Assembly: GCA_029931975.1 (NCBI GenBank)
Contig: JAOZQY010000010.1
Coordinates: 1 to 64,000, forward strand
Length of the DNA stretch: 64,000 nucleotides
DNA from: Bacteroidales bacterium
GTDB lineage: Bacteria; Bacteroidota; Bacteroidia; Bacteroidales; GCA-2748055
Direction of reading: 5' to 3'
Shown here: in pieces, positions 34,658-62,336 of the stretch
How positions within the stretch are numbered: the stretch's first letter is position 1
How the letters are laid out: each line of letters starts with the position of its first letter
Program-made: the position numbers and the translations under genes
Notes under the pieces: generated by a model
Databases searched by the model: none
Told to the model about the DNA's origin: nothing
Seen by the model: only the letters and a program-made list of their open reading frames with translations

Positions 34658-34663
34658 GAAATC

Positions 34664-38260: not shown

Positions 38261-41200
38261 TTAGTGTCGGTTCAATGAATAGAGGAGGAGGCTGTCACGA
38301 TTCATGCCTGCCACCAGCAGAGGTTTCTCTCCCTCCAGAATAAGCAGCGATTCTACCATACCATGAAGTACAATCCCACTCTCTGAAGGGTTCACAATTT
38401 TGCTTAGGGGTTTTTCCCCATCACTCATCAGAATTAAGCCCTTCAGTGCATCATAATAACCTGTACTGATATCGTAGGTGTGGTCGTTCCCGGCCAGCAG
38501 CACATCGGGCAGTCCGTCGCCATTAAAATCTTTTACCAGGGTTTTTGAAATGGGAGCCACCTGCGCCTCTTTTGGCAGCTTTTCCCATCTGAAACTGCCT
38601 TCGTCATTCCACAATAGGTGGCTGGATGTGCTTTCGACATGAAAAAGATGGTCAATCCGCATGCGCATATCATCATCCAGGATATCATCCATGGTAGCCT
38701 TACTGAAGGAGTTGTAGTTTGTATATTTCCTTGAGAAATATGGAGCCTGTCCTACCAGTTCATCAAGGTAATTGACAGGATACTCTTTCATCACATCATA
38801 TTTGTCTCTCCAGTATCCTGTGGAAATGGGATCGATGGTTCCGTTTTTATCCAGGTCCAAAGCATATATCCTCAAAGGGTACTCCTTACTCACAGTGAAG
38901 CGATGATTCTCACCCAGGTTGCCCAGGAGATAATCAGCATCACCGTCGTTGTCAAAGTCAGCCGCTGTAACAGAATACCACAATCCGTGCATCTCTTCAA
39001 ATTCTGGCAAGTCCAGTTTCTCCAGGTACTCCCCTTTCATGTTTTTCAAAATTACAGGTGCATCCCATTCCCGGGATATGACCAGATCCTCCCACCCATC
39101 TCCATCATAATCGCTCCAGGTGGCATCTGTAACCATGCCCAAATCCATGGAACTTGCTCCTTCCGAAGAGAACGATCCCTTCTCATTAAAAAGGATCCAG
39201 GACTCGGCGGAAAAAGGGAATCTGTTGTATTTGATACGTGCACCGATAAATAAGTCCATATCCCCATCGTGGTCAACATCAAAGGGCCTGACTACCGAGG
39301 CGGAAAATGGAGCTGTCGGTAATTTGGATTTCGAAAAGATACCATTGTTGTTGATGTAGAGGTAATGGATATACGCGGTCTCACGAGTGTTTTCATACCC
39401 ACCAGCCAGCACAACAATATCATTGTCTCCATCCAGATCGACATCAAATATGGCAAAATCAATCTCTGAAAAATTTTTCTTACCGGTCAGGCCTTCAATG
39501 GTAGTTTCCTGAAAGCCTTCAGCTTTCCTCAGGAATACCCGGGTAGGCTCAATATTTGTTGCACCGATGATCAGGTCCTCCAGACCATCTCCATCCAGGT
39601 CACCTTTTTGGATGCAGGGCCCTATCTGGGAAAATTTGTGGGGCAGAATATTCTGTCCGTAGAAAAAATCTATGTAATCGCTTTGTTGGTGGAGGTAGGA
39701 GAGCAATTCTTTCTCAGGTGAGAAGAGTCTGTCCGGTTCCGATAAAGGAATGCCCGGAGGCATGGAATTCACTTCCTCAATTTCCAGCTCCTGATTTACA
39801 CGAAGGTCTGTCAGAACACTAACTCTGCCAGTGGTGGGCCATGTTATTTTAAGCGAGTCAACCATGGTGTTTCCTGCCAGTCCAAAATGGGTGACCGGAT
39901 CTACAGAAGAGATATACCCCCTTGAGAGGAAGTTCTCCTGGAACTGGTAACTACTCTCACTCCAGATCTCAATTTTCGCTCCAAATGCCATGGGATTCTT
40001 ATTGTCCCCCACCAGTTTCACACGGAGGTAGTTGCTCTTCTTTTTATCGTGTTCTACAGTATTGTTTCTATAGACAAATGCGATATCATTAAGGTTATTG
40101 CATACATAATCCAGGTCTCCGTCGTTATCCAGGTCGGCAAAAGCGGCACCATAGGAGTAAGATTCCACAGGTTCGAACCATTCCGGGGCATTGTTCCGAA
40201 AATGGTATTTCCCCATATTTTCATAGGCAAAATTGAACATTTTTGACGGTGGACATTTATCAATAACATGCCTGTGATCGGCCACATGACCAAAGACCTC
40301 CGCCTTGTAGCGGGTCCAGTCCTTGTCGGTCATATCGCGCGGATATCCATTGGCAATCACCAGGTCCTTGTCACCGTCGTTGTCGAAATCGGCAAAGAGG
40401 GGCGACCAGCTCCACTCCGAATGGAAGATTCCCATCATCTGTCCCACCTCGCTGTAGGGAATCATCTCCCCGTTTAGCATCCCGTTGTGGAGATGCATCA
40501 TGTTACGGAGGTACTGGTGCTCGTAGCCATACTTCTCATCGTTGATATAGTAGATGTAGCCAAAACCGTTAATGGTCTTCTTCTTCTTATAATAGTACTC
40601 GGGCATCATATCCAGGGTGAACATATCGGGATAACCGTCGTTGTTGATATCAGCCATATCGTTCCCCATGGATGATTTGGTCTGATAGGACATCTTGGAG
40701 GCAATCTCGTTTTTGAAGGTCCCGTTCTGCTGGTTGATATAGAGTACATCATTGGAGATATAGTCGTTGGAGATATAGAGATCAGGGTAGCCATCCTTGT
40801 TCACATCTCCCAGTGCCAGTCCAAGTCCGAAACCCTCGTATACGATCCCTGCTTCGACGGTTACATTGGAGAAAGTTCCATCGCCATTGTTCCGGTAGAA
40901 GTCATCATTGCTGACCGCACTTCCATTATTGATCTTAGTCCTGTAGCTTGCAGAGAGCCTTTCGGTAACGAAATTATTCAGCAGATAGAGATCCATGTCC
41001 CCGTCGTTATCATAATCCAGAAATGCGGCATGTACTGAATAGCTCTCATCGGCCAGACCGTACTCTTGTGCTTTGTCGATGAACAAGAGCTCTCCATTCT
41101 CCTGGATTCCCTGGCTGATATAGAAACGGTTCTTTCTCTTGTCAGCTTCGGGGTGTGCCGTGCAGGTCAGGTAGATATCCTTCCATCCGTCCTCATTGAT

Positions 41201-41542: not shown

Positions 41543-41612
41543 CTCGGTATTTGAAATTATTATCAGACTGTGAGAAGCCCAAAGAAACAAAAAAAAGTAT
41601 CCTCATCAAAAA

Positions 41613-41650
41613 AAAAGAGGCTGATCCGCCGTGGCGGAAAAGCCTCTTTT
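41613..41650 (-). terminator. Strong intrinsic terminator after susD-1
   Basis: On the minus strand: AAAAGAGGCT arm (41650-41641), inner stem TCCGCC/GGCGGA (41638-41625), AGCCTCTTTT arm (41622-41613), followed by a run of T. It separates susD-1 (stop 41678) from the VCBS gene (start 41542). Confidence 0.9.
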
Positions 41651-41677
41651 CTATAAGCTATGTAAAATTAGTGTTCT

Positions 41678-43624
41678 CTACCTGTTCTGCTGTAGGATAC
41701 CGTTACTTACGTCAATCTGACGTTGTGGTATCGGGAAGTTAACATCTTCAGCTCCAACGGTAGCGTTGCCATAAAGGGCATTGCCCCAGGGCATGGTCTT
41801 TTCATAGTCAAGGATACGATTTCCTTCAGTGACCATAATACCCCAGCGCTGCAGGTCATAATACCTGTGGCCTTCCTGTCCCAGTTCAAGCTTCCGCTCC
41901 ATCATGATTTTTTCCATGGCATCGGCGGTGTTGGCAAAGGGAGAGGTATACTCATTAACCATATAGTTGGCCGCAGGAGTTGTTCCGTCTTCTTCATATA
42001 CCCAACCGGCAGTATTACCAGCTCTTTCACGAATCAGGTTCACCTCACCAAAGCCTAAGTCATCGGCATTGGTCTGAGCTTCGCATTCAGCTTTTAGCAG
42101 CAGTACATCTGCGTAGCGAATCATGCGGTATCCATTGGCAGTATAACCGGAAGTCCAGTTACCAACTTCAGTATAGGTGCCTTCCTGAGATTTCTTATAT
42201 ACCTGCTTCTTCGGGCTATAAGGTCCGGAGTAGCTCTGGTCACGAATCCAGTCAGAACCGGTATGAATACCCCAGTCCCAGTAAGGAATACCACGACGGC
42301 CAGCGGACCAGTCAAGGCGTGGGTCCAATGGAAGTGAGTTGTCTTCTGTCCATATCAGTTCCCAGTCTGAGGGGCTGGTCAAAGGATCGTTGTTCACATT
42401 TGGAGAGGATTCAGTCCCAGTTAAAGATCTGTATGCTAAATCAATATAAGGATTTGCGGGATCGTATGCAGTTACAACATCGTTAATCAGATATTGACCA
42501 ACGGTGGTTTCAGGATCACCATCATCTGCAACCCAAATACCTCCGGCAGCAATACCCATGTCCCTGAGCAGTTCTTCTCCAGAATTGTTATAGGATCCAT
42601 CAAGCAGTGGCAGACCGGTAGCCGGATCTACACGAAATGAGTTTACAAACTCCTGAGTGGGGTTAAAGAATCCACAGCAACCACCAGGTGAAGCACCACT
42701 TTTGTAAGGGAAGTTAAGCACTTCGCCACGACCTGCATTCCATGCACCTGAGTTGTCATTTACAGAATACTGCACTGTGTAAACGGCTTCTTTGTCATTA
42801 CGGAATTCCGTATCAAAGATATCACCGTAAGTAGCCAGCAGTCCGATTTCTCCTCCCGCAGGCTGAGTTCCGCTTGTTACTACTTCATTGAGTTCGCTAA
42901 GGGCTGCAGCATAATCTCCATACATCTGCATCTGAGCCTTGGCCAAAAAGACTTGGCAAACAGTCTTGTTGAAACGTCCAATCTGTCCCATATTCAGGGG
43001 TAGGTTCGTGCCTGCTTCCAGGTCGGCAATAATCATGGGCCTAATGTCCACATCATTGGTGACTGTTTTGGAATCGGTAGTTTCATCCACATAAGGGACG
43101 AAGGTTCCTGTAGCCATATCTGCCCAGAGCTTGTAAGCCCAGAAGTGGTATACACCACGCAGGGCCCTGGCCTGCATAACAAAGGAATCATATTCTTCCT
43201 GTGTAATGCCTCCTGCTTCAAGAGCTTTTGCAGCAACTGATATAGTTGTATTGGCACGGCTTACTCCTTCGTAACAAGACCGCCACTTAGCATTAAGATA
43301 GCCGTTGGTTGCTGTTTCTGAGTAAGTTTGTAGAGGGTTGATGGCTGGCTGGTCGCCAGAGTCGGTACCTTTATTAGCTTCCAATCCCCTGATGCTTCCA
43401 AATACCCAACCGGAGGAGGCTGCTTCCCAGCCATAGCCGTTGGCAACACCGTCAATCATAGAATACGCACCAATAAGCAGTGCATCCACACCGTTATAGG
43501 TCGCAAGTACAGTTTGATCCAAAGAACCATTTGGAGTGATCTCCAAAAATTCTTCGCTACAGGAGTTCATTAGCAGAAGTCCTGCGATAACTGCAAATAC
43601 TGATAAAAATTTTATCTTTTTCAT
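41678..43624 (-). CDS. SusD/RagB-family lipoprotein 1
   Basis: 648 residues. Signal MKKIKFLSVFAVIAGLLLMN, Cys22, and the acidic residues right after the cysteine (CSEEF) expected of a surface-exposure signal. SusD landmarks: FLEITPNGSLDQ, TYNGVDALLIGAYSMIDG, RALRGVYHFWAYKLWADM, DVLLLKAECEAQTN, and near the end MERKLELGQEGHRYYDLQRW. SusD lipoproteins form the lid of SusC-type TonB receptors and bind the substrate at the surface. It begins 27 bases after susC-1. No degradative enzyme is adjacent, so the ligand class is open. Confidence 0.93.
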   Translation of the reverse strand: MKKIKFLSVFAVIAGLLLMNSCSEEFLEITPNGSLDQTVLATYNGVDALLIGAYSMIDGVANGYGWEAASSGWVFGSIRGLEANKGTDSGDQPAINPLQTYSETATNGYLNAKWRSCYEGVSRANTTISVAAKALEAGGITQEEYDSFVMQARALRGVYHFWAYKLWADMATGTFVPYVDETTDSKTVTNDVDIRPMIIADLEAGTNLPLNMGQIGRFNKTVCQVFLAKAQMQMYGDYAAALSELNEVVTSGTQPAGGEIGLLATYGDIFDTEFRNDKEAVYTVQYSVNDNSGAWNAGRGEVLNFPYKSGASPGGCCGFFNPTQEFVNSFRVDPATGLPLLDGSYNNSGEELLRDMGIAAGGIWVADDGDPETTVGQYLINDVVTAYDPANPYIDLAYRSLTGTESSPNVNNDPLTSPSDWELIWTEDNSLPLDPRLDWSAGRRGIPYWDWGIHTGSDWIRDQSYSGPYSPKKQVYKKSQEGTYTEVGNWTSGYTANGYRMIRYADVLLLKAECEAQTNADDLGFGEVNLIRERAGNTAGWVYEEDGTTPAANYMVNEYTSPFANTADAMEKIMMERKLELGQEGHRYYDLQRWGIMVTEGNRILDYEKTMPWGNALYGNATVGAEDVNFPIPQRQIDVSNGILQQNR

Positions 43625-43651
43625 ATCTCTGTTGAATTTTTTCTTTTAACA

Positions 43652-46600
43652 TTAAAATCCAAGACTCACACCGAACAGGAACTGCTGAACAGCCGGAAGG
43701 TTACCTTCATCAACGCCCATAAAGTCGTCGTTGAAACTGGCAAGTTCCGGATCCATCCCTGAATAGCTTGTAAGCGTAAGCAGGTTGGTTCCCTGTATAT
43801 ATACCCTCAGGCTCGAGAAAACATTGCCCAGCGTGGCATTGTCGAAGGTATATCCTATCTGCAGGTTCTTAAGCCTGAAGAATGATCCGTCTTCAATATA
43901 GTAGCTGTTGGATACCTGGTTGGTAGAAAAGTTGGATTTATTGGAGGCCTTAGGCAAATCGGCACCTGTATTGGACGGTGTCCAGCTATTGGTCAGCAAG
44001 TCTGCACTCTTCTGTCCCTGGAAGGAGGGCCAGAAGTCCAGCCACCACTTGTTGTAGTTGAAGATATCATTGCCCTGTGAGCCATAGAAAAAGGCAGTCA
44101 GGTCAAATCCTTTATATCCAAGTACAAGGTTCAGACCATAGGTAAAGTCCGGATTTGGATTTCCAATATGAATACGGTCTGCGTCATCAATGGCACCACT
44201 GCCATCTTCATCAGCAAACTGCAGGAATCCGGGTTCAGCACCATCCTGGGTAGCAGCAGCATCTACAGCACCCTGGTTTTCAAAGAGTCCAAGATAATTA
44301 TATCCGAAAAATTCACCCATGGAATAACCTACCTCGTTGCGGTTAAAGGAACCAATTCGTGATCCGCCTGCATCCCAGTAGTCATAACCTTCGGCAATGG
44401 AGATAATCTCATTGCTATAAGTGGTTATGGAAGCATTGGCTTCAAAACTGAAGTCTCCCCATGTCTGGTGATAGATTAACTGGAGGTCAACTCCGGTATT
44501 TTTCATCTCACCAATGTTTACATAAGGTACTGAAGCTCCACCAGCTGTTCCGGGAAGCTCGGGATTATAGAGCAGGTCTGAACTCTGCTTGGTGTACCAG
44601 TCAAATACCAGTTCGAACCTACGGTCCAGAAGAACAGCGTCGAAACCGATATTGGCAGTTACCTGAGTTTCCCACTTGGCATCGGGGTTACCTATCCTGG
44701 TGGGACGGAAGCCCTGTACCGAGCTGTTGAATGTACCCCCTACGTCATAGAAGGATCTGTCCGGACTACCACCATAAAGGTAGTATTGGTTGCTGGCAGA
44801 TACGGCGATCTGGTTACCCATGGTACCATAACCACCTCTGATCTTCATGTCGGAGATAAAATCAAGCCCGGCCATAAATGACTCATCGCTGATCCTCCAA
44901 CCTGCAGAAACAGATGGGAACACACCGTAGCGGGTGTCTGCACCAAATACAGAAGAACCATCCCTACGTACTGTTCCACTCAGATAGTACTTGTTGCGGA
45001 AGTTATAATCGGCCCGTGCAAACTGGGAAACTAAAGTACGTGGGGTCCAGTATCCGGAACCTCCGTTCAACAGAGTAGCACCTGTGCTAACTGTCCTGTA
45101 AGCAAAATCTGAAGAGAAATAATCTGCACCTGTGGAATAAACATTACGCCTCATGCTGTACTTCCCTGCTTCATAACCGGCTACTACCATCAAAGTATGA
45201 TCACCAAACTGACGGTTGAAGGTTAAAGTATTGGTCCAGGTCCAGTCGCCACCCATGTTGGCATCTTCCCTATAAGTAGGAGTTGCAACATTTTCTGAAC
45301 TTTCATAGGTTGAGCTGTTCCAGTTGGTTTGATAGGTATTGTATATCGATCCACCGAAGGTAGTTCTGAAATCCAATCCGTCAAGAATTTTCACATTGCT
45401 GAAGACATTACCCATGATTCGGATATTGGACCATTTGTCCAGCGAATTCCTGTTCTGATTGGCAACATAGTTGTCTCCGTTACCAAGTCTTTCTGCAATA
45501 CCGGTTCCACCCCAGTCGCCATCTTCAAATGTATGGGAGAGTCCTTCGAAAGTACCCTTATCCCATATCACAGGAATAATCGGCTGTGTGCGATAGACAC
45601 CCATGGCCAGGGCAGTACCTTCTGAACCGTTTCCGGAGATACCATTGTCGGAACGGTGTACCACGGAAATATTCTCTCCGAAGGTGATCCTGTCCTTCAC
45701 GTTGAATTCGGAGTTGAAGCGGATACTATAACGCTTGTACCAGTTATCCGTAACAACACCTTTCTGGTCAAAGTAACCAAAACTGGCATAGTATTTTGAG
45801 TTCTGGTTTCCACCCGACATGCTCAGGTCATGGTTTTGAATCATGGCATTGTTGAAGATCTCATCATACCAGTCGGTATCAGCTGCCCATGCGGGAAGTG
45901 TGGGAGATCCTGTGTAAGGTCCATAAAGGGGATGAGCCGGATCTTCAGGATCAGCACCATCATTTTCCCATACCAGGAAGCTTAGGTCGGCATATTGCTG
46001 AGTATTTGCAAGGTTGTCCGGCCCTGATCCGGGATTCTGGGTTCCGACGTACATATTGTAATTTACCTTAATTGCTCCTGCGGAACCTTTCTTGGTAGTA
46101 ATTACAATTACACCGTTGGAAGCCTGTGATCCATAAATGGAAGCAGCACCAGCATCCTTCAGAACAGACATTGATTCTACGTCTTCCGGATTGATGTTGG
46201 CCACATCCGTTGTGGGAACACCATCAACAACGTAAAGAGGGTTGTTGTTCTGGAAGGAACCGAATCCTCTGATACGAACCTTGGCAGATTGACCAGGTCT
46301 GGAGTCCTGTGTGACTGTTACACCGGCCACGCGTCCCTGCATTTGCTGGGTGACGTTGCCCTGGGGCATCTGGGTCAGTTCGTCTGATTTAACAACACCC
46401 ACAGCACCCGTCAGGTCTTTCTTTTTCTGGGTGGCGTAAGCTGTTACCACGATCTCTTCCAGTGAGGTAACGTCGGGTTGCAGAGTCACACTAATGGTGG
46501 TCTGAGCTCCAACGGGAATTGACTGGGTAGAGTAACCAATAAATGAGAATACAAGGGTAGCATCGTCACCGGGAACAGAGATAGTATAATTACCCTGTCC

Positions 46601-46780
46601 GTCAGTAACGGCTCCTTGTGTGGTTCCCTGGACCACAATGTTAACTCCAGGAAGCGCTCCTTGATCCTCAGAAGTTACAGTACCTGTAACCGTTCTTTGC
46701 TGAGCAAATGTAACACTCAGCGCAAAGCCAAGGAGGAGTAGCGATAATACACCACTCTTCCACAATGTAGATCTACGCAT
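43652..46780 (-). CDS. SusC/RagA-family TonB-dependent receptor 1
   Basis: 1042 residues. Signal peptide 1-26 (WKSGVLSLLLLGFALSVTFA), carboxypeptidase-like domain (about 28-115; GALPGVNIVVQGTTQGAVTD), TonB-like box EEIVVTAYA, plug with VRIRGFGSFQNNNPLYVVDG and SMSVLKDAGAASIYGSQASN, then a beta-barrel ending QQFLFGVSLGF. It forms the barrel of the SusCD transporter. It is first in its unit; a shared leader (46778-46818) lies before the start, and a possible terminator of the upstream VCBS gene at 46941-46953. No sigma/anti-sigma or two-component regulator is adjacent. Confidence 0.94.
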   Translation of the reverse strand: MRRSTLWKSGVLSLLLLGFALSVTFAQQRTVTGTVTSEDQGALPGVNIVVQGTTQGAVTDGQGNYTISVPGDDATLVFSFIGYSTQSIPVGAQTTISVTLQPDVTSLEEIVVTAYATQKKKDLTGAVGVVKSDELTQMPQGNVTQQMQGRVAGVTVTQDSRPGQSAKVRIRGFGSFQNNNPLYVVDGVPTTDVANINPEDVESMSVLKDAGAASIYGSQASNGVIVITTKKGSAGAIKVNYNMYVGTQNPGSGPDNLANTQQYADLSFLVWENDGADPEDPAHPLYGPYTGSPTLPAWAADTDWYDEIFNNAMIQNHDLSMSGGNQNSKYYASFGYFDQKGVVTDNWYKRYSIRFNSEFNVKDRITFGENISVVHRSDNGISGNGSEGTALAMGVYRTQPIIPVIWDKGTFEGLSHTFEDGDWGGTGIAERLGNGDNYVANQNRNSLDKWSNIRIMGNVFSNVKILDGLDFRTTFGGSIYNTYQTNWNSSTYESSENVATPTYREDANMGGDWTWTNTLTFNRQFGDHTLMVVAGYEAGKYSMRRNVYSTGADYFSSDFAYRTVSTGATLLNGGSGYWTPRTLVSQFARADYNFRNKYYLSGTVRRDGSSVFGADTRYGVFPSVSAGWRISDESFMAGLDFISDMKIRGGYGTMGNQIAVSASNQYYLYGGSPDRSFYDVGGTFNSSVQGFRPTRIGNPDAKWETQVTANIGFDAVLLDRRFELVFDWYTKQSSDLLYNPELPGTAGGASVPYVNIGEMKNTGVDLQLIYHQTWGDFSFEANASITTYSNEIISIAEGYDYWDAGGSRIGSFNRNEVGYSMGEFFGYNYLGLFENQGAVDAAATQDGAEPGFLQFADEDGSGAIDDADRIHIGNPNPDFTYGLNLVLGYKGFDLTAFFYGSQGNDIFNYNKWWLDFWPSFQGQKSADLLTNSWTPSNTGADLPKASNKSNFSTNQVSNSYYIEDGSFFRLKNLQIGYTFDNATLGNVFSSLRVYIQGTNLLTLTSYSGMDPELASFNDDFMGVDEGNLPAVQQFLFGVSLGF

Positions 46781-46818
46781 AATAGAAGTAGTTTTAGGTT
46801 AAAAATGAATACAAGTTG
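46778..46818 (-). promoter_or_regulatory. Conserved susC leader, copy 1
   Basis: The 40 bases before the susC-1 start, on the plus strand GAAGTAGTTTTAGGTTA then AATGAAT and ACAAGTTG, are nearly the same as before susC-2 (62334-62376). Conservation stops further upstream. Confidence 0.55.
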
Positions 46819-46940
46819 GTTTATATTAATACTTAGTTTTAGTCAGTTGTGATATGCCCAGGCAAGACAATCCATAGCAAGTATAGCTTTTTTTTTAATG
46901 AATTCGAGGAATATTTTCTAATTTAGAACCATTCAAAATA

Positions 46941-46953
46941 GCGCCATAGGCGC
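46941..46953 (-). terminator. Possible short terminator after VCBS gene 46963
   Basis: GCGCC-TAT-GGCGC hairpin followed on the minus strand by TATTTTG. The short 5-bp stem and weak T-run make it modest, but the position just after the stop is right. Confidence 0.4.
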
Positions 46954-46962
46954 CTGTTTACC

Positions 46963-50274: not shown

Positions 50275-50275
50275 A

Positions 50276-53200: not shown

Positions 53201-53638
53201 ATTACACACATAAATATCGCACCACCCGTCTCCGTTCACATCGGCCATACTGGCCCCGGTCGACCATTCTCCCTTTCCGCCTATTCCCGCACGCTCTGAA
53301 ATATCTTCGAATTTAAAATCTCCCTGGTTCAGGTAGAGCACATTTGAGCTCATATTCGAGGTGAGGAAGAGATCTATGAGTCCGTCGTTGTTCACATCAC
53401 CCATGGCCACTCCGCCTCCATTGTAAAAGTTCCGGTAGGTATAGATGTTGAATTTCTTCTTCAACTGTTCATCATAGTCCAGGTGATTAATAAATCCTGC
53501 CCCGGTGTATGATTCCGGCATCAGTGTAAATATCTGATCGCCCGAACCTGAGTTAGGGTTTCGATTACACGAAGAGGTGAGCAGCAGAGCTGGCAATAGA
53601 AGCAGGCCAGGGAAGGTGAGCTTGAGCAGGGTTTTCAT
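50276..53638 (-). CDS. FG-GAP/VCBS + ASPIC/UnbV lipoprotein (second of unit 2)
   Basis: 1120 residues. Signal MKTLLKLTFPGLLLLPALLL, lipobox Cys24, no acidic surface-export signal after it (CNRNPNSG). Blades include DVNNDGLIDLFLTSNM, DVNGDGWCDIYVCNSGN and DYDRDGDLDLYLLNNS; ASPIC/UnbV at about 535-610 (AIGSKVTARHQGQSF, MPMRGFKSTMDPRPNLGVG). C-terminal regions (HGLNSRFKANSEQPVSMYVN, GRYDASYG) pair it most closely with the 54249 protein, implying duplication within the locus. It starts seven bases after the small lipoprotein gene and its stop is one base from the next start. Confidence 0.87.
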   Translation of the reverse strand: MKTLLKLTFPGLLLLPALLLTSSCNRNPNSGSGDQIFTLMPESYTGAGFINHLDYDEQLKKKFNIYTYRNFYNGGGVAMGDVNNDGLIDLFLTSNMSSNVLYLNQGDFKFEDISERAGIGGKGEWSTGASMADVNGDGWCDIYVCNSGNVEGDERHNELYINNGNLTFTESASEYGINDRGYSTHGAFFDYDRDGDLDLYLLNNSFKAIGSFDLSANQRLLRDTIGGDKLFRNDNNYFTDVSEEAGIYASLIGFGLGVTVGDIDQDGWMDIYISNDFFERDYIYMNNGDGTFREQLTEMMQCTSAASMGADMADINNDHYPEIFVTDMIPEHDARLKTKTTFDSWDSYKSNYENGYHHQFTRNMLQLNNADGTFSEIGRLAGVYATDWSWGALILDLDNDGLKDIFVANGIYQDLTDQDYIQFFSNRDMVASIISGNNVDYKTLIDAIPSVKLPSYAFKNMGGHHFENKAASWGLAEPSHSNGSAYGDLDNDGDLDLVVNNVNMPMFLYRNETSQRLSDHHYLKVILKGKPGNTDAIGSKVTARHQGQSFYLEQMPMRGFKSTMDPRPNLGVGSLTMVDSLVVQWPDGNVSIMKDVPTDQILTLFQKDAVPPNAPLIRPWKNKELWFKEITDEVSVDFIHRENDYDDFRREKLIYQMLSTEGPRTSSGDVNGDGLQDLYVGGARGQAGSLLIQQRDGSFLATNKVLFEIDKDSEDTDCTLFDADVDGDLDLYVASGGNEFSSSSSALADRLYLNNGRGSFSKSQQILPSGRYESTSCVRAADYDGDGIMELFVGIRLLPSLYGVPVNGYLLENDGKGNFSNVSAQIAPELKKVGMLRDMQWEDVDGDGDQDMILAGDWMALKIFINENGSFRENKEAFGSVNTSGWWNCIATGDFDGDGDSDFVAGNHGLNSRFKANSEQPVSMYVNDFDRNGSAEQIICVYEGDSAYPMALKHDLTRQIPDLLKLYPKYELYKEQTINDMFAPEQLANAIHLDVAYLESALFINDGSGHFTIQALPVESQFSTVMAAETGDFNRDGNLDLLLGGNLYHVKPEVGRYDASYGNFLAGDGHGNFSVVPPTQSGFRLNGEIRDIQVIQSPDGTLLVVARSNDPLQLFRIQEQ

Positions 53639-53645
53639 CCGGATA

Positions 53646-54236
53646 TCAGTTCTGGATTTCTCCCTGCTGGGAATCTATCACTGCAGGGGAGAGCATATCG
53701 GTAAATATGGCCCAGACATAGAGATCATTCTCGATGTAAATGGTGATTCGCCTGTTCCCATCTATTTTAATATAAGCTTCTCCTTTCATGGGATGAGCCA
53801 CGGTGATAAAACCTTTGCCGTAGATATCCTCATACCAGTGCCTTACATCTTTGGCCAGATTGCTTGCTGATAGTTCCTTTGTCCAGGGGGCCCAGCCATT
53901 GTATATAAATCGTACCGGCATTTCAAAGATAAGTCCATCATGGAACCTGGGATAGAAGTTCATGGTAGCCGGATATCTCAACTCTTCATTGATATCATAC
54001 TGAACACTTAGATTGGCTGATCCCTGCCTGACTAAACTATCCCGGTTCAGTCTATAACAATTTTTATAGAAATCCTGTTCGTCCATACCCAGTGAGAGTC
54101 CCATAAACAGGGAGTCGTACCTGACTCCGCTGGCCAGTTCCCGTTCTAATCTGCGTTCATATGTTTTTCCTGGCGAGCATCCTCTTACAACTAGTGCGAC
54201 CATGATGCTTAGCACCACCCAAAGCATTCTATTCAT
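53646..54236 (-). CDS. Small lipoprotein of unknown function inside the VCBS cluster
   Basis: 196 residues. Signal MNRMLWVVLSIMVALVVRG with Cys20. The rest has a predicted mixed fold: a charged helical start (KTYERRLERELASGVRYD), then YPATMNFYPRFHDGLIFEMP, and late strands ITIYIENDLYVWAIF. I recognise no family. It lies between two VCBS genes with gaps of 7 and 12 bases, clearly in the same operon, so it is probably a partner or assembly factor of these proteins. Translation is intact and there is no sign of decay. Confidence 0.75.
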   Translation of the reverse strand: MNRMLWVVLSIMVALVVRGCSPGKTYERRLERELASGVRYDSLFMGLSLGMDEQDFYKNCYRLNRDSLVRQGSANLSVQYDINEELRYPATMNFYPRFHDGLIFEMPVRFIYNGWAPWTKELSASNLAKDVRHWYEDIYGKGFITVAHPMKGEAYIKIDGNRRITIYIENDLYVWAIFTDMLSPAVIDSQQGEIQN

Positions 54237-54248
54237 TCTTCTTCAATT

Positions 54249-57200
54249 TCAGAAAGTGTAAAAGTGTAAATTCTCATCGTTTCTTGCAACAGCTATCACA
54301 TTGTTTCCCTTAATTTTTATGATTTTGAAATCTCTTATTTCGCCCTTGCTAAAAAAACCGGAACTATCGGCGGGGATAACCCTCCATACTTCATTCCCGC
54401 AGCCTTTCAAAAAAAGACCATGCCCGGCACTATAAATCCCTGTTTCCGGTTTGGCCCTTGTCATGTTCCCACCCAGCAATATATCGCATAATCCATCGTG
54501 ATCGAAGTCGCCCGTTTCAATGGCATAAACCGGTGAAAGCTGACTCGATGCAGGCAGGGGCTTTATCTGAAAAGATCCCTGACCATTGTTGATCAAGACG
54601 GAGCTTTCCAGGTTTGTGGCCGAAAGCACAACGGAGCGTTGAAGAATATCTTCCGAAAAAATATCCTGGATAGTTTCTCCGCTGTAAGCCTTGAAAGTCT
54701 TATATACCTGTTTTAGGGCCGGAATTTGTTTTACCAGGTCATCCTTCATGGCTACGGGGTAACTTGTGTCGCCGTTAAAGGCACAGATAATATGTTCAAC
54801 TCTTCCATTCATATCAAAATCGTTCACATACATGGTAAGCGGTTTTTCCCGGGAAGCATGAAAGCGGGAGTTTAGGCCATGATTGCCCAGCACCAGGTCC
54901 ATGTCTCCATCCCCGTCCAGATCAGCTGCACTAATCCTGTTCCACCACCCCTCTGTTCCTTGCAGGCCATAGTCGTCAGAGCGATCTGTGAAGTGGCCCT
55001 CCTCATTGATAAAGAGCTTTACGGGCATCCACTGGCCCACCATGACCATATCCGGATCTTTGTCGTTATCCACGTCGGTCCAGACCATATCGGTAATCAT
55101 CCCTAATTCTTTTAGTCCGGGTGCTTTCAGATCCGAGACATTGGTAAAGGATCCTTTTCCATCATTCTCGAGCAGGTAGCCATTTACCGGGACGCCATAC
55201 AGGAATGGTCGAAGTCGGATCCCCACAAAGAGGTCCGAATCTCCATCCCCATCAAAATCGGCTGCCTGAACCGTAGAGCTGCTCTCATAGCGTCCTGAAG
55301 GCAGAACCTGTTTTGATTTGGAGAAGATTCCCTTGCCATTGTTCAAATAGAGCCTGTCACTCAGAGCAGAGGAACTGGAGGGGAGCTCATTTCCGCCACA
55401 AGCCACATAGAGATCCTGGTCACCATCTCCGTCTGCATCAAAGAAGGCACAGGCGGTCTCTTCGGAGTTGCTTTCGGGCTCAAAAAGTGTTTTACCGGAA
55501 GAAGAAAAGTGACCATCGCTGTGCTGGATATAGAGAGCTCCCGGACTAGCTTTTGCTCCGCAGAAATAGAGATCATCCAATCCATCCCCATTCACATCAG
55601 CCGTAGCCATTCGGGGGCCCTCGCTTGAGTGCATATGGAAGAGCAGTGACTCACTGTGGAAATCATTGAAGTCGTTCTCCTCATGTGAGAAGGAGAGCCC
55701 CTTCGGGAGATCGCTCTTTTGAAATACAGCTTTTTCAGTTAAAGCCGGGAGTGAGTCACATGGCAATGCCTCTGTCTGATTCAGTATGAGGAACTGGTTG
55801 GCCTCTATCTCGTAAAGCCGGAAACAGCTTCCATCCGGCCAGCTCACCAGGATCGAGTCGATCCTGGAAATATCTCCCAGTCCAAAATGTAGCCGGTGAT
55901 CCATGGAAGATTTAAATCCCCGCATTGGAATGTTTTCCTGGTAGCTGCTTTCACCATTATAATATAGTGTTGCCGTGGCCCCGATGGCACTGGTGTTGGA
56001 ATCTTTGCCTGTGAAAGCAATGGAAAGGTAATTGGAGTGAGCCTGCTCACTGCTGTTATTTCGGTAAAGAAAGGAGGGCATATTCACATTATTAACCACC
56101 AGGTCCAGGTCCCCGTCATTATCCAGATCCCCGTAGGCGGCTCCATTGGAGTGAGATGGTGTGGCCAGTCCCCACGAATCAGACCTATTAGAGAAGGTCA
56201 GATCTCCGTTGTTATGGTAGGCATAGTTGGGAACCCGTTCCGATGGAATCCGATCTATGAGGCTCAAAATAGCCTGTTCCTCACTTTGGATCATGGATCG
56301 CATGAGGGCCGGATTGGAGTAGAAATTCAGGTAGTCCCGGTCCAGCAGATCCTTGTATATCCCATTGGCCACAAAAAGATCGCGCCATCCGTCGTTATCC
56401 AGGTCCATGATCAACGCTCCCCAGCTCCAGTCTGTGGCATCCACACCACTGTACCTGCCAATCTCGCTGAAGGAGCCGTTTCTGTTATTGAGTTGTAATA
56501 CGTTTCGGGCAAACTGGTGATGGTAGCCCTTATCCACTTTATTTCTGTAGCTTTCCCAGGCTTCAAACAGCACCTTGGTCTTCAGCCGCCTGTCGCCTTC
56601 AGCAGTCATCTCAGTCACAAAAATATCGGGCCAGCCATCGTTATTGATATCAGCAATATCGGCTCCCATGGCCCCCAGGCTGGTTTCACTCAGTTGTTCG
56701 TCAAGACATTCCGAAAATGTGCCATCCTGCATATTGATATAGAGATAATCGCGTTCAAAAAAGTCATTGGAGACATAGATGTCCATCCAGCCATCCCGGT
56801 TCAGATCGGCCACACTTACGCCCAGACCAAAGCCTATTTTGCTGCCATAAATACCTGCTTCAGCACTCACATCCACAAAGCTATTTCCATCGTTTCTGTA
56901 AAGTTTATTGGCTCCAAGGGCGTCCCTCACCAGACGAGCTCCCTCTTCCATGTCAAATTCGGTAACCGACTGGAAGGAGTTGTTCAGCAGGTAGCAGTCC
57001 AGGTCCCCATCGCGGTCATAGTCAAAAAAGCTTGCATGGGTGGAGAGCCCCAGGTCTGCAATGCCCCAGGCCTCAGCCTGTTCGGTGAATGTGAGATCTC
57101 CATTATTGATAAAGAGTTCATTGTGCCGGTGGGGGGTGTCCGGGACACCTGATTTGCAGACATAGATATCGGGCCATCCATCGCCATTTACATCGGCTAT

Positions 57201-57578
57201 GCTAACACCGGTCGACCAGACTCCCTCACAGGCCACACCTGCCTGCTGGGTAATATCATCAAAATGAAGATTACCCCTGTTGATATAAAGCCGGTTGTCC
57301 GCAATATTTCCACAAAAATAGATATCGGTAAGTCCATCCAGGTTGAAGTCGCCCAGTCCCACCCCTGCACCATTATAAAAATTGCGGTAAGTATAGGTGT
57401 TGTATTCCTCACTGTACTCTACGTCGTTGCGAAATAGGATCCCGGTTTCTTTTGCATCCAGAAGGGAGAATCGGGCAGAGATTCCGGAATCCGGAGCCTC
57501 ATCCTGACATGCCTGCAGGAAAAGCATCGCAAGCAAAAGAATTCCGGTAAATGATAAGGATGATTTCCCTTGAAACAT
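54249..57578 (-). CDS. FG-GAP/VCBS + ASPIC/UnbV lipoprotein (first of unit 2)
   Basis: 1109 residues from ATG 57578 (ATG 57593, five codons up, is also possible). Signal MFQGKSSLSFTGILLLAMLF, Cys24, followed by acidic QDEAPDSG, which looks like a surface-export signal. Blades: DFNLDGLTDIYFCGNI, DVNGDGWPDIYVCKSG, DYDRDGDLDCYLLNNS; ASPIC/UnbV at about 528-600 (AIGATATLYYNGESSY, IPMRGFKSSMDHRLHFGLG). Very similar in layout to the 50276 protein. The start is only 19 bases beyond a perfect 15-bp terminator-like hairpin, so its translation may depend on read-through or RNA processing. Confidence 0.87.
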   Translation of the reverse strand: MFQGKSSLSFTGILLLAMLFLQACQDEAPDSGISARFSLLDAKETGILFRNDVEYSEEYNTYTYRNFYNGAGVGLGDFNLDGLTDIYFCGNIADNRLYINRGNLHFDDITQQAGVACEGVWSTGVSIADVNGDGWPDIYVCKSGVPDTPHRHNELFINNGDLTFTEQAEAWGIADLGLSTHASFFDYDRDGDLDCYLLNNSFQSVTEFDMEEGARLVRDALGANKLYRNDGNSFVDVSAEAGIYGSKIGFGLGVSVADLNRDGWMDIYVSNDFFERDYLYINMQDGTFSECLDEQLSETSLGAMGADIADINNDGWPDIFVTEMTAEGDRRLKTKVLFEAWESYRNKVDKGYHHQFARNVLQLNNRNGSFSEIGRYSGVDATDWSWGALIMDLDNDGWRDLFVANGIYKDLLDRDYLNFYSNPALMRSMIQSEEQAILSLIDRIPSERVPNYAYHNNGDLTFSNRSDSWGLATPSHSNGAAYGDLDNDGDLDLVVNNVNMPSFLYRNNSSEQAHSNYLSIAFTGKDSNTSAIGATATLYYNGESSYQENIPMRGFKSSMDHRLHFGLGDISRIDSILVSWPDGSCFRLYEIEANQFLILNQTEALPCDSLPALTEKAVFQKSDLPKGLSFSHEENDFNDFHSESLLFHMHSSEGPRMATADVNGDGLDDLYFCGAKASPGALYIQHSDGHFSSSGKTLFEPESNSEETACAFFDADGDGDQDLYVACGGNELPSSSSALSDRLYLNNGKGIFSKSKQVLPSGRYESSSTVQAADFDGDGDSDLFVGIRLRPFLYGVPVNGYLLENDGKGSFTNVSDLKAPGLKELGMITDMVWTDVDNDKDPDMVMVGQWMPVKLFINEEGHFTDRSDDYGLQGTEGWWNRISAADLDGDGDMDLVLGNHGLNSRFHASREKPLTMYVNDFDMNGRVEHIICAFNGDTSYPVAMKDDLVKQIPALKQVYKTFKAYSGETIQDIFSEDILQRSVVLSATNLESSVLINNGQGSFQIKPLPASSQLSPVYAIETGDFDHDGLCDILLGGNMTRAKPETGIYSAGHGLFLKGCGNEVWRVIPADSSGFFSKGEIRDFKIIKIKGNNVIAVARNDENLHFYTF

Positions 57579-57596
57579 GCGCGCAATGTACAAAAA

Positions 57597-57630
57597 AGAG
57601 AGCAGGCAATTGCAAAATTGCCTGCTCTCT
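57597..57630 (-). terminator. Perfect 15-bp hairpin terminator after susD-2
   Basis: AGAGAGCAGGCAATT (57597-57611), loop GCAA, AATTGCCTGCTCTCT (57616-57630), then on the minus strand TTTTTTG. It is perfectly paired and lies between susD-2 (stop 57659) and the VCBS start (57578). Confidence 0.9.
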
Positions 57631-57658
57631 GAATAACTATATATTCAAATGGCTACTT

Positions 57659-59347
57659 CTAATTATATCCGGGATTCTGGTCCAGGTTGGGGTTGGCATC
57701 CAGCTTGTCCCTGTGGATGGGGAACAATACAGTGTGTTCTCCTTCAACAAGTACATCACCAGGATTATTATAAGGAAGGGCCCAGTCAGCTACACTGGTG
57801 AAAAGATCCCAACGGATCAATGCCCGACGCCTGTTGTTTTCAGCAAACATCTCACGGCCGATCTCATTGAAGAGCTCACCACCTGCGATACTGGGTCCGG
57901 TCATATCGAAACTAACGGGTCCGTCCACAGTTGTCAGGGGGGCAACACCGGCACGTTCCCTGATATCATTCACCAGGGGAAGAATGCCGGCATCTCCTGG
58001 ATTCAGTCTCCAGAGGGCCTCAGCTTTCATCAGGATAATATCGGCCAGACGGAAAACGGCATAGTCGTTGTTCATGGCATCGGGATGTCCACCCAACTCA
58101 AATTCCCATTTACCGATCCTGACTCCTGCCTGACGATAGGCCTGTGGACCCAGCTCATTGATCTGGGGTTCACCGGAACCGATGTTCCCAAAATTGAGCA
58201 GTGTTCCATCCGGGTCATCTGAGTCAGCACCATCATCCACAGTAGGACTTCCGTCTACGTTATACTGGTAACCGGCGATGAAATTGCCTCGCCTGATGGC
58301 CGGGCCATCTAAGGTACCCACATCTCCTTTACGAAGATCTGTATCCTCGTATGAGTTGTAGAACTCCTCCAGAGAACAGAATCCGTTCCATGGTTGTGCT
58401 GTCAGATTATAGGTATACTGGCTTGAATAGTGCAGGGTTCTGGCTGACACGTTAAAACCTCCATAATACACCTGGTCGTAAGGTATGGCAAAGATCATTT
58501 CCGAAGTTCCTGTGTTGCTGGCACTGAAGTTGTCAAAGTAGTTACCTGTGAGCGCGTAACCACCATTGTCAATGATATCAGTACAAGCGCTTACGGCTTT
58601 GGCATACTGCTGAGTTCCGGTATAGACTTCGGCATTCAGATACAGGTTGGCAAGTAAGGCCTTTCCGGCATAATAGTTCATCCGTCCGTAGGTAGTACCA
58701 TCCACTGCTTTGGGAAGCAGGGGTACAGCCTCCTCAAGGTCGGCTACCAGCCAGGCATAAACGTCTGCCCTGTCAACTGTTGCAGGTTGTGCATCGGCAT
58801 TTGCAAAATCGGTTACCAGGGGTACATTCCCGAACCAATCGATCAGTTGCCAGTAAAAGAAGCCCCTGACGGCACGTAGTTCAGCGATAAAGGCAGCTGC
58901 CACATCGGCATCCATGGCTCCGTCCTCAACAAGGACTTCGAATTGGTAGATCAAACGGTTGGCCGTATTTACACCGCCAAAACCAAAGTTCCATCCACCA
59001 TTCATACCACCGTCTTCACGGGTCCATGCATGAAGGTGCCATCTTCTCCAGTCGCCACCGTCGTCCCAGTCCTGACCACGTGTGGGCACGACCATTTCGT
59101 CGGTTGAAACACAATTCAGGTTCCATGGATCGCCGGAACCCCAGTTGCCAAACTGGGTATAGGCAGCGCCCAGGGCAGCGAGAATTTCCTCTTCTGTATT
59201 GAAGAAGTTATCTGGAGTCACATCACTGTAGAGTTCTTCATCCAGATTAGTACATGACTGGTTAATAGTGGCTGTTAGCATCACTGCCAGGACTGCCATT
59301 GCCAGTAATCGTGATTTTCTCATTTTATTTCTATCTGTTGTTTTCAT
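57659..59347 (-). CDS. SusD/RagB-family lipoprotein 2
   Basis: 562 residues from ATG 59347 (ATG 59323, MRKSRLL, is an equally good start). Signal MRKSRLLAMAVLAVMLTATI, lipobox Cys with acidic residues soon after (CTNLDEEL). SusD landmarks: LYSDVTPDNFFNTEEEILAA, RAVRGFFYWQLIDWFGNVPL, FRLADIILMKAEALWRLNPG, INEIRERAG-like VNDIRERAGV, and the end LFPIHRDKLDANPNLDQNPG. It is shorter than SusD-1 and diverged, so the two pairs probably take different ligands. It starts 19 bases after susC-2. Confidence 0.93.
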   Translation of the reverse strand: MKTTDRNKMRKSRLLAMAVLAVMLTATINQSCTNLDEELYSDVTPDNFFNTEEEILAALGAAYTQFGNWGSGDPWNLNCVSTDEMVVPTRGQDWDDGGDWRRWHLHAWTREDGGMNGGWNFGFGGVNTANRLIYQFEVLVEDGAMDADVAAAFIAELRAVRGFFYWQLIDWFGNVPLVTDFANADAQPATVDRADVYAWLVADLEEAVPLLPKAVDGTTYGRMNYYAGKALLANLYLNAEVYTGTQQYAKAVSACTDIIDNGGYALTGNYFDNFSASNTGTSEMIFAIPYDQVYYGGFNVSARTLHYSSQYTYNLTAQPWNGFCSLEEFYNSYEDTDLRKGDVGTLDGPAIRRGNFIAGYQYNVDGSPTVDDGADSDDPDGTLLNFGNIGSGEPQINELGPQAYRQAGVRIGKWEFELGGHPDAMNNDYAVFRLADIILMKAEALWRLNPGDAGILPLVNDIRERAGVAPLTTVDGPVSFDMTGPSIAGGELFNEIGREMFAENNRRRALIRWDLFTSVADWALPYNNPGDVLVEGEHTVLFPIHRDKLDANPNLDQNPGYN

Positions 59348-59366
59348 ATCGTCTGTTTTTAGCGGG

Positions 59367-62336
59367 TTAGAAACCAAGGTTTACACCCAGTGAAACAGAC
59401 CTGGTCCTGAACCAGGTATTCCTTCTGTCGATACCAGGAATCAATACGTTACCACCATCATCATATCTCGGGCTGGGATCTACACCTTTATACTTGGTAA
59501 TGTAGAACAGGTTGTTGCCTGCCACAAAGACACGTATGTTCCTGAAGGCCTTGTTCGCAGACATGTCGAAGGTATATCCAAGGCTCATATTATCGAGCGA
59601 AACAAAGGATGCATCTTCAATGTGTGAGCTGTTAAGAACTCCTGATGAGGCATTGTATAAGGTTCCGTTCTCGTTCCTCATGTCATCGGCAGTTGCCGGC
59701 AGGTTGTAGGATCCAATCATCTGGGGTACCTCATAAAATGCCCGGAATGTGTTGTTCAGATCGTGTCCCAAAACGCCGCGGAAGAAGATATTCAGGTCAA
59801 AATTCTTATACTTAAAGTTGTTTGACCATCCGAACTCAGCATTGGGTATCCCATTACCAACCACAACACGGTCGAGTTCATCTACAGTCCCGTTACCATC
59901 GGTGTCTTGAAGAATCAGGTTGCCATCGGGATCAATCTCCACAAAGGTGTGGGCCCAGAGTTGACCAATGGGCTGACCCTCTTCAGCTCGTACCAGGGGA
60001 ACCCCACTTTGTCCGGGAGCACCCATGGCACCCAGGTCGCGTGTTCCATAGGTAAGTTCTGCTCCATTATATTCTCCTGAAAGAGAGACCAGCTCGTTCT
60101 TCAGGTTGTAGGTGGGAGTAATGGTAGTGCTCCATGAGAAATCGCCAGCTTGTACAGCGTTCCATGTCAGGGTCAGTTCAAGACCACTGTTCTGGATTTC
60201 TCCCAGGTTCAGCCAGGCTTGAGTATAGAGGTTCGGGGGAACCGGCACTTCGTATTGGAACAGCAGGTCGGTAGTGGTTCTTGTGTAGTAGTCAAATGAA
60301 CCAAAGAGTTGACCATCCAGCAGTGAGAAATCCACACCAATGTCCAGTTCACCTTTCTTTTCCCAACCCAGGTCCTCATTGGCATTACTAACCGGTGCAT
60401 AGCCGGGGATGAACTCACCATTATAGAAGAAGTTTCCTGAGGGTCCGAGACGCAGTAGCGACATATAACTGTCTGATGGCTGGTTTCCGGTTATTCCGTA
60501 ACTGGCCCTGAGTTTCAGGTTGTCCATAGAGGAAATATCCAGGATATTGGCCAGATCCACACCTGCACCAACGGCAGGGAAGACCCCCCACTTGTTACCA
60601 TCACCAAATCGGCTGGAACCTTCATAACGCACACTGGCTGTGAAAAACCAGCTGTCGGTTACATTCAGGTTCACACGGCCAAAGAATGCGGCCAGTGTAT
60701 TGGAGTGCTTGTAGCTGGAAACAGAGCCAATGCCTTCGTTGAAATCCTTGGCTGCTCCCAGGTTATTATAGGTAAAGGCATCAGTGATAAAATCGCCACC
60801 TTCTGCTGAAAAACCTTCATAGTTAAAGTCCTGGTGGGAATATCCGGCTAAGACCGTCAGGTTGGCACCGCTGATATTTGTCACATAGTTGATGGTTGAT
60901 TCGAACAGTTCGAAAGAGTTCTCATCAAAGCTTCTCCTGGCCAGACCGTTACGGTCCATACCCGTTCCGTAAGAGTTTTTGTCGCGGTAAGTCCCACGGG
61001 CAAAACTCTGCTGCTGTACAGAGTAGAAAGCGTCGACTTTCAATCCATCCATAATTTCAAAAGCACCTTTCAGGGCCACATTAACACGCTGGTCTTTACC
61101 CTCGTTTGTATTCTGTTCCATCATGGCCACCGGATTGTAATAATCATAAAGGACCTGCTGGAAATAGCCGTCATACTGATCGTAGGCTGCATCATCGCTT
61201 CTCACAGGAGCGGTAGGGTTATAGATGGAGGCATATCTGAATGCTTCGTCGAAACCATATTGTGATTCACGCTGGGTGGCACCAATGTTCAGGTCCATTG
61301 TGAGGCGGTCGTTGATGGCCTTCTGGCTCAGATTCAGACGTCCGTTCAACTGGGTATACCCGGTGTTGATGGCAACGCCATCTCCATCACGGTAGTTGAA
61401 TGAAGCCATATAGGTAGTCTTGTCGGTACCCCCTGACATACTCAGGTTGTGCACCTGTTGGATGGCGTTCTGGGTGGTCTCTTCAAACCAGTTGGTGTCA
61501 TAACCAAAATCGGTTCCTTCGTCGGTCTCGGCCGACATGGTACGCCACTGATCGGAAGTCATCACATTGGGAAATTTACCCACGGTCTCCATGGTAACCA
61601 TACCATTGTAATCGATATAGGCTGTTCCCCTTCTACCTTTTTTAGTAGTTACGATGATTACACCGCTGGAACCCCTGGTACCGTAAATGGCAGCAGCAGA
61701 ACCGTCTTTCAGAACGTCCATGGACTCGATGTCGTTGGGATCCACATTGTCCAGCGATCCGCCAACAACTCCGTCAATAACCACAAGGGGCTGGGTGTTG
61801 GCGCCAATGGTACTCATACCTCGCAGACGCATGGTGAAGCCCCCGTTGGGGTTGCCACCCGGCTTAGAGATGGAGAGACCGGCCACTTTACCCTGCACCA
61901 GCTGGGCGGGATTGATCACTGAACCTTTGTTGAATTCTTCTGATTTGACATTGGAGATGGCAGAGGTCAGTTCTTTCTTCATCTGAGTACCATAGCCGAT
62001 GACCACGATTTCATCCAGAGCAAGGATGTCTTCGACCAATGTCACGTTAATAGAGGTTTGATTACCCACAGCAATGTTCTGTGGCGCGTAACCAATGGAT
62101 GTAAATACCAGGACAGCATCTGGACCCGGAACGGTAATACTGAAATTACCATCCACGTCGGTCACGGCTCCCTGGGTAGTTCCCTGGATCACAATGTTTA
62201 CACCGGGAATGGGACCTTCCAGGTCGGAAGAGACCGAACCGGTCACTGTTTTTTCCTGGGCAAAGGTTAAGCTGATCGCAAAACCAAACAGGATAAGCGA
62301 CAAAAAGCCGCTTTTCCACCATGCAGAATTTCGCAT
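59367..62336 (-). CDS. SusC/RagA-family TonB-dependent receptor 2
   Basis: 989 residues from ATG 62336, which restores a signal peptide (WKSGFLSLILFGFAISLTFA) almost the same as that of SusC-1. CarboxypepD-like domain (GPIPGVNIVIQGTTQGAVTD), TonB-like DEIVVIGYG, plug (FTMRLRGMSTIGANTQPLVV, DIESMDVLKDGSAAAIYGTR, GSSGVIIVTTKKGRRG), then barrel ending TRSVSLGVNLGF. The periplasmic N-terminus is much more conserved between the two SusCs than the barrel. First gene of unit 2, divergent from the asparagine-synthase-like gene. Confidence 0.94.
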   Translation of the reverse strand: MRNSAWWKSGFLSLILFGFAISLTFAQEKTVTGSVSSDLEGPIPGVNIVIQGTTQGAVTDVDGNFSITVPGPDAVLVFTSIGYAPQNIAVGNQTSINVTLVEDILALDEIVVIGYGTQMKKELTSAISNVKSEEFNKGSVINPAQLVQGKVAGLSISKPGGNPNGGFTMRLRGMSTIGANTQPLVVIDGVVGGSLDNVDPNDIESMDVLKDGSAAAIYGTRGSSGVIIVTTKKGRRGTAYIDYNGMVTMETVGKFPNVMTSDQWRTMSAETDEGTDFGYDTNWFEETTQNAIQQVHNLSMSGGTDKTTYMASFNYRDGDGVAINTGYTQLNGRLNLSQKAINDRLTMDLNIGATQRESQYGFDEAFRYASIYNPTAPVRSDDAAYDQYDGYFQQVLYDYYNPVAMMEQNTNEGKDQRVNVALKGAFEIMDGLKVDAFYSVQQQSFARGTYRDKNSYGTGMDRNGLARRSFDENSFELFESTINYVTNISGANLTVLAGYSHQDFNYEGFSAEGGDFITDAFTYNNLGAAKDFNEGIGSVSSYKHSNTLAAFFGRVNLNVTDSWFFTASVRYEGSSRFGDGNKWGVFPAVGAGVDLANILDISSMDNLKLRASYGITGNQPSDSYMSLLRLGPSGNFFYNGEFIPGYAPVSNANEDLGWEKKGELDIGVDFSLLDGQLFGSFDYYTRTTTDLLFQYEVPVPPNLYTQAWLNLGEIQNSGLELTLTWNAVQAGDFSWSTTITPTYNLKNELVSLSGEYNGAELTYGTRDLGAMGAPGQSGVPLVRAEEGQPIGQLWAHTFVEIDPDGNLILQDTDGNGTVDELDRVVVGNGIPNAEFGWSNNFKYKNFDLNIFFRGVLGHDLNNTFRAFYEVPQMIGSYNLPATADDMRNENGTLYNASSGVLNSSHIEDASFVSLDNMSLGYTFDMSANKAFRNIRVFVAGNNLFYITKYKGVDPSPRYDDGGNVLIPGIDRRNTWFRTRSVSLGVNLGF

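Follow-up and report, generated by a model that had tools for sequence, protein, structure and literature searches.

Twin-propeller ASPIC lipoproteins as a conserved partner family of SusC-SusD importers in Bacteroidota

In a 64,000-nucleotide stretch of a Bacteroidales genome (contig JAOZQY010000010.1, positions 1-64,000, forward strand; here called the window), we identified two SusC-SusD (SusCD) importer units whose accessory genes encode large lipoproteins with two predicted propellers and an ASPIC domain. Genes were called from open reading frames (ORFs) and their Pfam and NCBIfam matches. We abbreviate the twin-propeller ASPIC lipoprotein as V, SusC and SusD as C and D, and a small lipoprotein encoded among the V genes as S. 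Both units lie on the minus strand: unit 2 (46963-62336) has the order susC2-susD2-V4-S-V3-V2, its V genes occupying positions Va, Vb and Vc, and unit 1 (38261-46780) has the order susC1-susD1-V1.

Unit 2 opens with susC2 (59367..62336, minus strand), which encodes a SusC/RagA-type TonB-dependent transporter with Pfam CarbopepD_reg_2, Plug and beta-barrel matches and the start MRNSAWW. It is followed by susD2 (57659..59347; SusD_RagB, 4.7e-25, and SusD-like_3), whose product starts MKTTDRNK and whose longest ORF reaches 59377. Downstream lie V4 (54249..57578), S (53646..54236; 196 residues, of a family named in neither Pfam nor NCBIfam), V3 (50276..53638) and V2 (46963..50274), the last belonging to a clade different from that of V3 and V4. 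The intergenic gaps are, in order, 19, 80, 12, 7 and 1 nucleotides, and 182 nucleotides then separate V2 from unit 1. There, susC1 (43652..46780; SusC/RagA transporter, TIGR04056 5.6e-264, with Plug and barrel) precedes susD1 (41678..43624; SusD_RagB, 2.7e-35) and V1 (38261..41542), a member of a third clade. Adjacent susC and susD genes matching their family models identify SusCD importers in both units, TIGR04056 having been run on susC1 only. The likely ATG starts of V1, V2 and V4 sit downstream of the longest-ORF starts. Read from the translations, a lipobox-like cysteine ends the N-terminal signal of V1-V4, S and both SusD proteins (SusD contexts NSCSEEF and NQSCTNLDEE).

The four V proteins are 1093-1120 residues long and carry, respectively for V1 to V4, 8, 9, 10 and 11 FG-GAP_3 stretches. 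Each contains one UnbV_ASPIC domain (PF07593, over cut-off) within ORF residues 535-654, after the FG-GAP propeller; only FG-GAP and ASPIC exceed the Pfam cut-off. Each also contains 13-14 Dx[DN]x[DN]G calcium loops, against a mean of 0.32 and a maximum of 3 in 500 shuffles of V4. V1 shares 35-36% identity with V2-V4, and V4 shares 55% with V3 and 44% with V2. None of the nine unit genes matched an enzyme family over the Pfam or NCBIfam cut-off, no further ORF of at least 120 residues lies within either unit except antisense ORFs overlapping the named genes, and a carbohydrate-active enzyme (CAZyme) gene, the criterion for a polysaccharide utilisation locus, was not found in either window unit. 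The first-pass annotation of this DNA had described this gene order and strand, V proteins of about 1100 residues with a lipoprotein signal, calcium loops and a central ASPIC segment, and units devoid of enzymes; on each of these points our analysis agrees with it.

We surveyed V in Bacteroidota genomes drawn evenly from the phylum, scoring two candidates per genome at a threshold of E 1e-150, and identified it in 86 of 296 genomes, the genome studied here included. V was also present in 13 of 17 other genomes of the same genus (threshold 1e-60), and the ASPIC family was not found in any of 14 control genomes, Bacteroides ihuae among them. The V family is widespread in Bacteroidota and unnamed, and a search of an open-licence paper collection found no work on V beside SusCD and none pairing vanadium-dependent haloperoxidases with SusD, bringing up instead papers on biofilms, ice-binding proteins, Poribacteria, a phage and a Rhizobium protein. 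In the genome studied here, which has only 9 SusD_RagB matches, all four V proteins found (E up to 1e-60) fall within the two units.

SusC and SusD models were then built, using the window genes together with the sequences they matched, and gene order was read around V in regions extending to about 20 kb or to the end of the contig. Three sets of loci were analyzed: a phylum sample (81 best V matches were listed and 60 of their loci retrieved, 59 of them with a full V ORF; in the other, L132, longer antisense ORFs probably displaced V in the caller), a GTDB sample limited to the top 80 of at least 571 loci and therefore biased to close relatives, and a genus sample of 20 regions, 19 of which were counted (L114 has no full V). 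Some units have, in place of SusD, a protein of another SusD-like class (PF12741/PF12771 in L102:8340-9908), and eight ORFs were added on this basis.

V shared its run with SusC or SusD at 40 of 59 loci in the phylum sample; the corresponding counts were 63 of 80 in the GTDB sample and 13 of 19 in the genus sample. When SusC or SusD was counted anywhere in the locus, 42 of 59 phylum-sample V loci contained one, against 1 of the 19 regions surrounding ASPIC proteins other than V (Fisher p 3e-7; control regions span 9-17 kb versus up to 20 kb for V loci), and that single region contains a V unit. Three of the control regions (L195, L201 and L203) show no ORF recognised by the V model. The association of V with susCD across Bacteroidota, which the first-pass annotation had proposed to look for, is thereby borne out, and the data support the twin-propeller lipoproteins as a conserved SusCD partner family rather than chance neighbours.

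The small lipoprotein S follows V closely. Its profile matched 22 of 296 Bacteroidota genomes, with one copy each, spread over 12 of 140 genera; S lay within 200 nucleotides of V in all but one of these genomes (21 of 22), the exception being G097 at 1.4 kb. Among 25 S loci, several of which end at contig or region edges, SusC or SusD shares the run in 17 and a PAP2 gene is present in 4; in L156 (G330), S was missed by the ORF caller although the profile search places it there. The order C-D-V-S-V-V recurs in a Bacteroidales metagenome-assembled genome (L093), in Maribacter (L075) and in L111, L113, L135, L138, L213 and L215. In six loci (L137, L152, L154, L157, L211 and L214) the V preceding S has only about 600 residues, half the usual length. 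The window S has no Pfam or NCBIfam match; across the S family, five Pfam families each matched a single S protein (best E 0.0042), and a profile of 17 S proteins gave no convincing match to any solved structure (best E 0.15). A structure model of S, built from only 3 aligned sequences, was poor, with a predicted local distance difference test score (pLDDT) of 54.

In a midpoint-rooted FastTree phylogeny of 103 V proteins, in which support is low at some inner nodes, all 48 V proteins that flank S are united in one exclusive clade (support 1.0). Every third-position V protein of an S unit, 17 in all, falls in a second clade of 30 (support 0.97), alongside 13 V proteins of units without S, the latter units being represented by 21 hand-picked loci with 37 V proteins. 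V1 belongs to a third clade (support 0.98). The S units of distant families thus retain distinct V types at fixed places within the unit, which is the pattern expected of subunits with separate jobs.

We modelled the structure of V4 from an alignment of 58 sequences, comprising 54 of 87 eligible locus proteins and the four window V proteins, and obtained a mean pLDDT of 91.7 and a predicted template modelling score of 0.91. In the fold search, residues 33-603 aligned to murine CRTAC1 (9etn) with a Z-score of 40.2 and a root-mean-square deviation (rmsd) of 2.4 over 457 residues, while residues 615-1109 resembled 7-bladed propellers, including LGI1 (Z 31.6), with many others close behind. A profile search of solved structures likewise placed V closest to CRTAC1 (E 5.5e-29), followed by integrin alpha chains. 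V is thus confidently predicted to be a CRTAC1-like propeller and ASPIC module fused to a second 7-bladed propeller. Its N-terminal half shares the propeller and ASPIC arrangement of CRTAC1; unlike CRTAC1, V adds the second propeller, a lipoprotein signal and a position after susD. A crude lipobox pattern applied to the longest ORFs matched 171 of 254 full V proteins, a lower bound because ORF starts are often placed too far upstream. We take the calcium of the V loops to be structural rather than part of the Ca-dependent sensing that the first-pass annotation had suggested.

The fold bears directly on the possibility that V is itself an enzyme, one or both propellers acting on sugars as a lyase or dehydratase in the manner of aldos-2-ulose dehydratase, so that the enzyme of the unit would have escaped recognition. 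Aldos-2-ulose dehydratase has cupin domains and a catalytic metal site in its propeller. The C-terminal propeller of V4 aligns to it (4a7k; Z 28.6, rmsd 3.1, 347 residues), and outside its calcium loops V also has invariant positions, among them W384-S385-W386. The Z-score is, however, lower than that of the non-enzyme LGI1 and close to those of many unrelated propellers, the comparison concerns the fold and not catalytic residues, and Pfam gives V no further domain such as a cupin. PMC8023676 places both aldos-2-ulose dehydratase and PVL lectins in the VCBS superfamily. The extra unit genes of relatives, described next, are often sugar-processing, which suits a catalytic V; against it, the PAP2 proteins and glycosidases often encoded beside V would render such a V partly redundant. 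We consider an enzymatic V unlikely, if the foremost of the alternatives.

Enzymes do accompany V elsewhere. A gene for a PAP2, or vanadium-haloperoxidase-like, protein is absent from the window units and occurs in 25 of 59 phylum-sample V units, 18 of which also have SusC or SusD, in 19 of 80 GTDB units and in none of 19 genus units. It lies directly after C-D-V-S-V-V in L135, L138, L213 and L215; three of these four loci belong to a single genus. Of 51 PAP2-like proteins, 43 contain the motifs K-x(5-7)-RP, SGH and GG[I]H, which we take to be the vanadium haloperoxidase active-site signature; a phosphatase role is as possible for this neighbour as a haloperoxidase one. Pfam recognised PAP2 in 16 of 34 scanned downstream ORFs of 350-600 residues (36 in all, L049 and L059 being left out) and vanadium-chloroperoxidase domains in 3 and 1. 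A profile of the V-linked PAP2 type, run without a positive control, found no match in the genome studied here or in 30 relatives; the profile of the same proteins matched 51 locus ORFs. The genome studied here has one other PAP2 match, a 204-residue frame away from the units.

Other extra genes point to sugars. Among 67 of 184 extra unit ORFs that were scanned, all from the phylum sample, the families most often represented were GH116-like/MGH1 hydrolases (6), GH65 enzymes (4), SSF and MFS transporters (4 each) and PfkB kinases (3); GH31, GH97, GH2, GH3, alpha-amylase and fucosidase families occurred once or twice each. Altogether, 101 CD-V units comprise 35 with PAP2, 43 others with another gene of at least 200 residues and 23 with neither (FG-GAP proteins uncounted); the last figure is an upper bound because regions were cut at contig ends or at about 20 kb.

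These counts define how far the propellers can be said to take the place of enzymes, as the first-pass annotation had proposed. At its fullest, this explanation holds that the ligand needs no breakdown, being a small molecule, cofactor or metal complex as in the BtuBG and XusAB systems. The two enzyme-free window units, the 23 recurring units without another gene, and the lack of a haloperoxidase-like match in the genome studied here and its relatives are consistent with it. Against it stand the PAP2 genes and glycosidases in other units of the V family, the possibility that enzymes are encoded elsewhere in the genome, and a contrast drawn in PMC10404256 between SusCD, which handles polymers, and BtuBG, which handles a monomeric molecule. 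Full replacement appears improbable to us. The proposal is partly supported: it suits the genus of the window but not the whole V family. The first-pass annotation had also regarded homologues scattered without susCD, or a conserved enzyme gene within the unit, as evidence against itself, and each was found in part, since V stands in a run with SusC or SusD at 40 and without either at the remaining 19 of the 59 phylum-sample loci, and PAP2 occurs in 25 of the 59 V units.

The junction between susD and V carries a further feature. The gap from susD2 to V4 contains a terminator-like hairpin of 15 pairs with a T tract (57597..57630, minus strand), and another (-25.0 kcal/mol, then a T tract) lies between susD1 and V1 (41612..41651, minus strand). 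Under relaxed, uncontrolled criteria a hairpin was found at 108 of 113 SusD-V junctions; under strict criteria the count was 68 of 111, against 2 of 111 shuffles. Strict hairpins were found at 1 of 129 SusC-SusD, 2 of 59 V-V, 0 of 42 V-S and 0 of 35 V-PAP2 junctions, and at 10 of 34 junctions (5/14 and 5/20) of SusD with same-strand genes other than V. The hairpin after susD is enriched at V junctions (p 0.0015) but is not V-specific.

Both susC genes also share the leader CCTAAAA(A)CTACTTC(A/T)ATTATG (62334-62355 and 46778-46798, minus strand), whose core has exactly two copies in the genome, just 5' of both susC starts. Across 250 loci, the leader matched only L029, itself a stretch of the genome studied here, and a loose form preceded 5 of 128 SusC starts, two being those of the window. 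Given this near-absence elsewhere, we rejected a conserved susC leader and treat the element as local similarity of two paralogues.

Beyond the units, a fifth FG-GAP/ASPIC protein of 1204 residues, with TPR repeats, is encoded on the plus strand at 34628-38242, convergent with V1, and has close homologues in V loci of same-genus genomes (L112, L116, L117, L120, L124, L125 and L128). An asparagine-synthase-like gene (62584-63912, plus strand) diverges from susC2, with homologues in other V-bearing loci (L115, L120, L172, L197 and L217). Ten loci (L115:3594-4511, L150:16179-17093 and eight more) carry a recurrent 298-306-residue protein next to their V units; its two scanned members show a weak GyrI-like domain. 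Gene G+C content ranges from 0.447 to 0.501, near the window value of 0.472, and base composition lends no support to horizontal transfer of the units; the patchy distribution of V cannot by itself decide between transfer and loss.

Known systems offer partial parallels. In the levan utilisome, glycan-binding proteins and endo-glycanases act as SusCD accessory lipoproteins, according to PMC7618045. Like the levan and dextran utilisomes treated there, the window places a SusC-SusD pair beside genes for large predicted surface lipoproteins; unlike them, its accessories are twin FG-GAP/ASPIC propellers and S, with no recognisable enzyme. BtuG, a lipoprotein folded as a 7-bladed propeller, binds stably to BtuB (PMC10404256), and in the XusA-XusB pair a propeller surface lipoprotein captures the ligand for a TonB-dependent transporter (PMC13142918). 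The pairing of such a transporter with a propeller surface lipoprotein, predicted for V from its lipobox-like cysteine, is common to both; BtuG and XusB are single 7-bladed propellers, whereas the window has SusD and V has two calcium-loop propellers and ASPIC. BtuG and XusB are absent among the fold-search matches listed for V4, and either could still be related.

By analogy with these systems, we consider it reasonably probable that V and S belong to a SusCD complex as surface subunits that capture, and may also process, its ligand, and that the window encodes a minimal, enzyme-poor version of this complex. V and S would be mounted on the SusC barrel and form a multi-subunit assembly at the cell surface, as in the utilisomes or with BtuG on BtuB. 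What they capture is most likely a carbohydrate or a glycoside, because relatives' units hold glycosidases, sugar transporters and sugar kinases. The captured ligand would be passed to SusD and SusC for TonB-driven import, and partial termination at the hairpin after susD would likely yield more SusCD than V. In the window genus, processing, if any, may be performed by V itself or by genes located elsewhere, while units of this kind in many other lineages additionally carry genes for the vanadium-haloperoxidase-like PAP2 enzyme or for glycosidases.

Several observations weigh against this interpretation. V is patchy near home, being absent from all 10 genomes of the family's other genera and from all 33 of the order's other families (1e-60). 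Besides the phylum-sample loci at which V has neither SusC nor SusD in its run, V occurs with PAP2 and without SusCD in the roughly 20 kb read at L159-L161 and L186-L189; V is therefore not strictly a SusCD subunit, and its link to PAP2 is independent of SusCD. Fixed V positions everywhere had to be rejected, as in L162 and L165, which have no S, the susD-adjacent V belongs to the third-position clade. The suggested substrate class, finally, derives from neighbour genes in other genomes. Some of these data could also fit V and S being surface adhesion or assembly proteins that are co-transcribed with SusCD and take no part in uptake. The integrin- and CRTAC1-like sequence and fold of V, its occurrence without SusCD in 19 sampled runs, and a non-transport propeller surface lipoprotein in the Bacteroidota BAM complex (PMC12578637) are compatible with such a role, but the strongly repeated position of V after susD and the distinct V types inside SusCD-V-S operons argue against it, and we regard it as more improbable still than full replacement of enzymes.

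Ligand capture by V and S as SusCD subunits thus remains the interpretation that we favor. A bolder form of it, in which V, S and SusCD constitute an unrecognised, phylum-wide heteromeric surface machine whose propellers both bind and process a glycoside, with the haloperoxidase-like partner optional and the window genus retaining a propeller-only form, strikes us as doubtful, about as much so as full replacement.

Should V and S prove to be subunits of SusCD, a sizeable share of nutrient uptake in the phylum would use propeller lipoproteins that CAZyme searches would miss. The recurrent PAP2/haloperoxidase-like gene provides a concrete, testable lead to the chemistry of these units. The likeness of V to the propellers of animal CRTAC1 and integrins, in turn, offers a bacterial setting in which the ligand binding of that fold may be studied.

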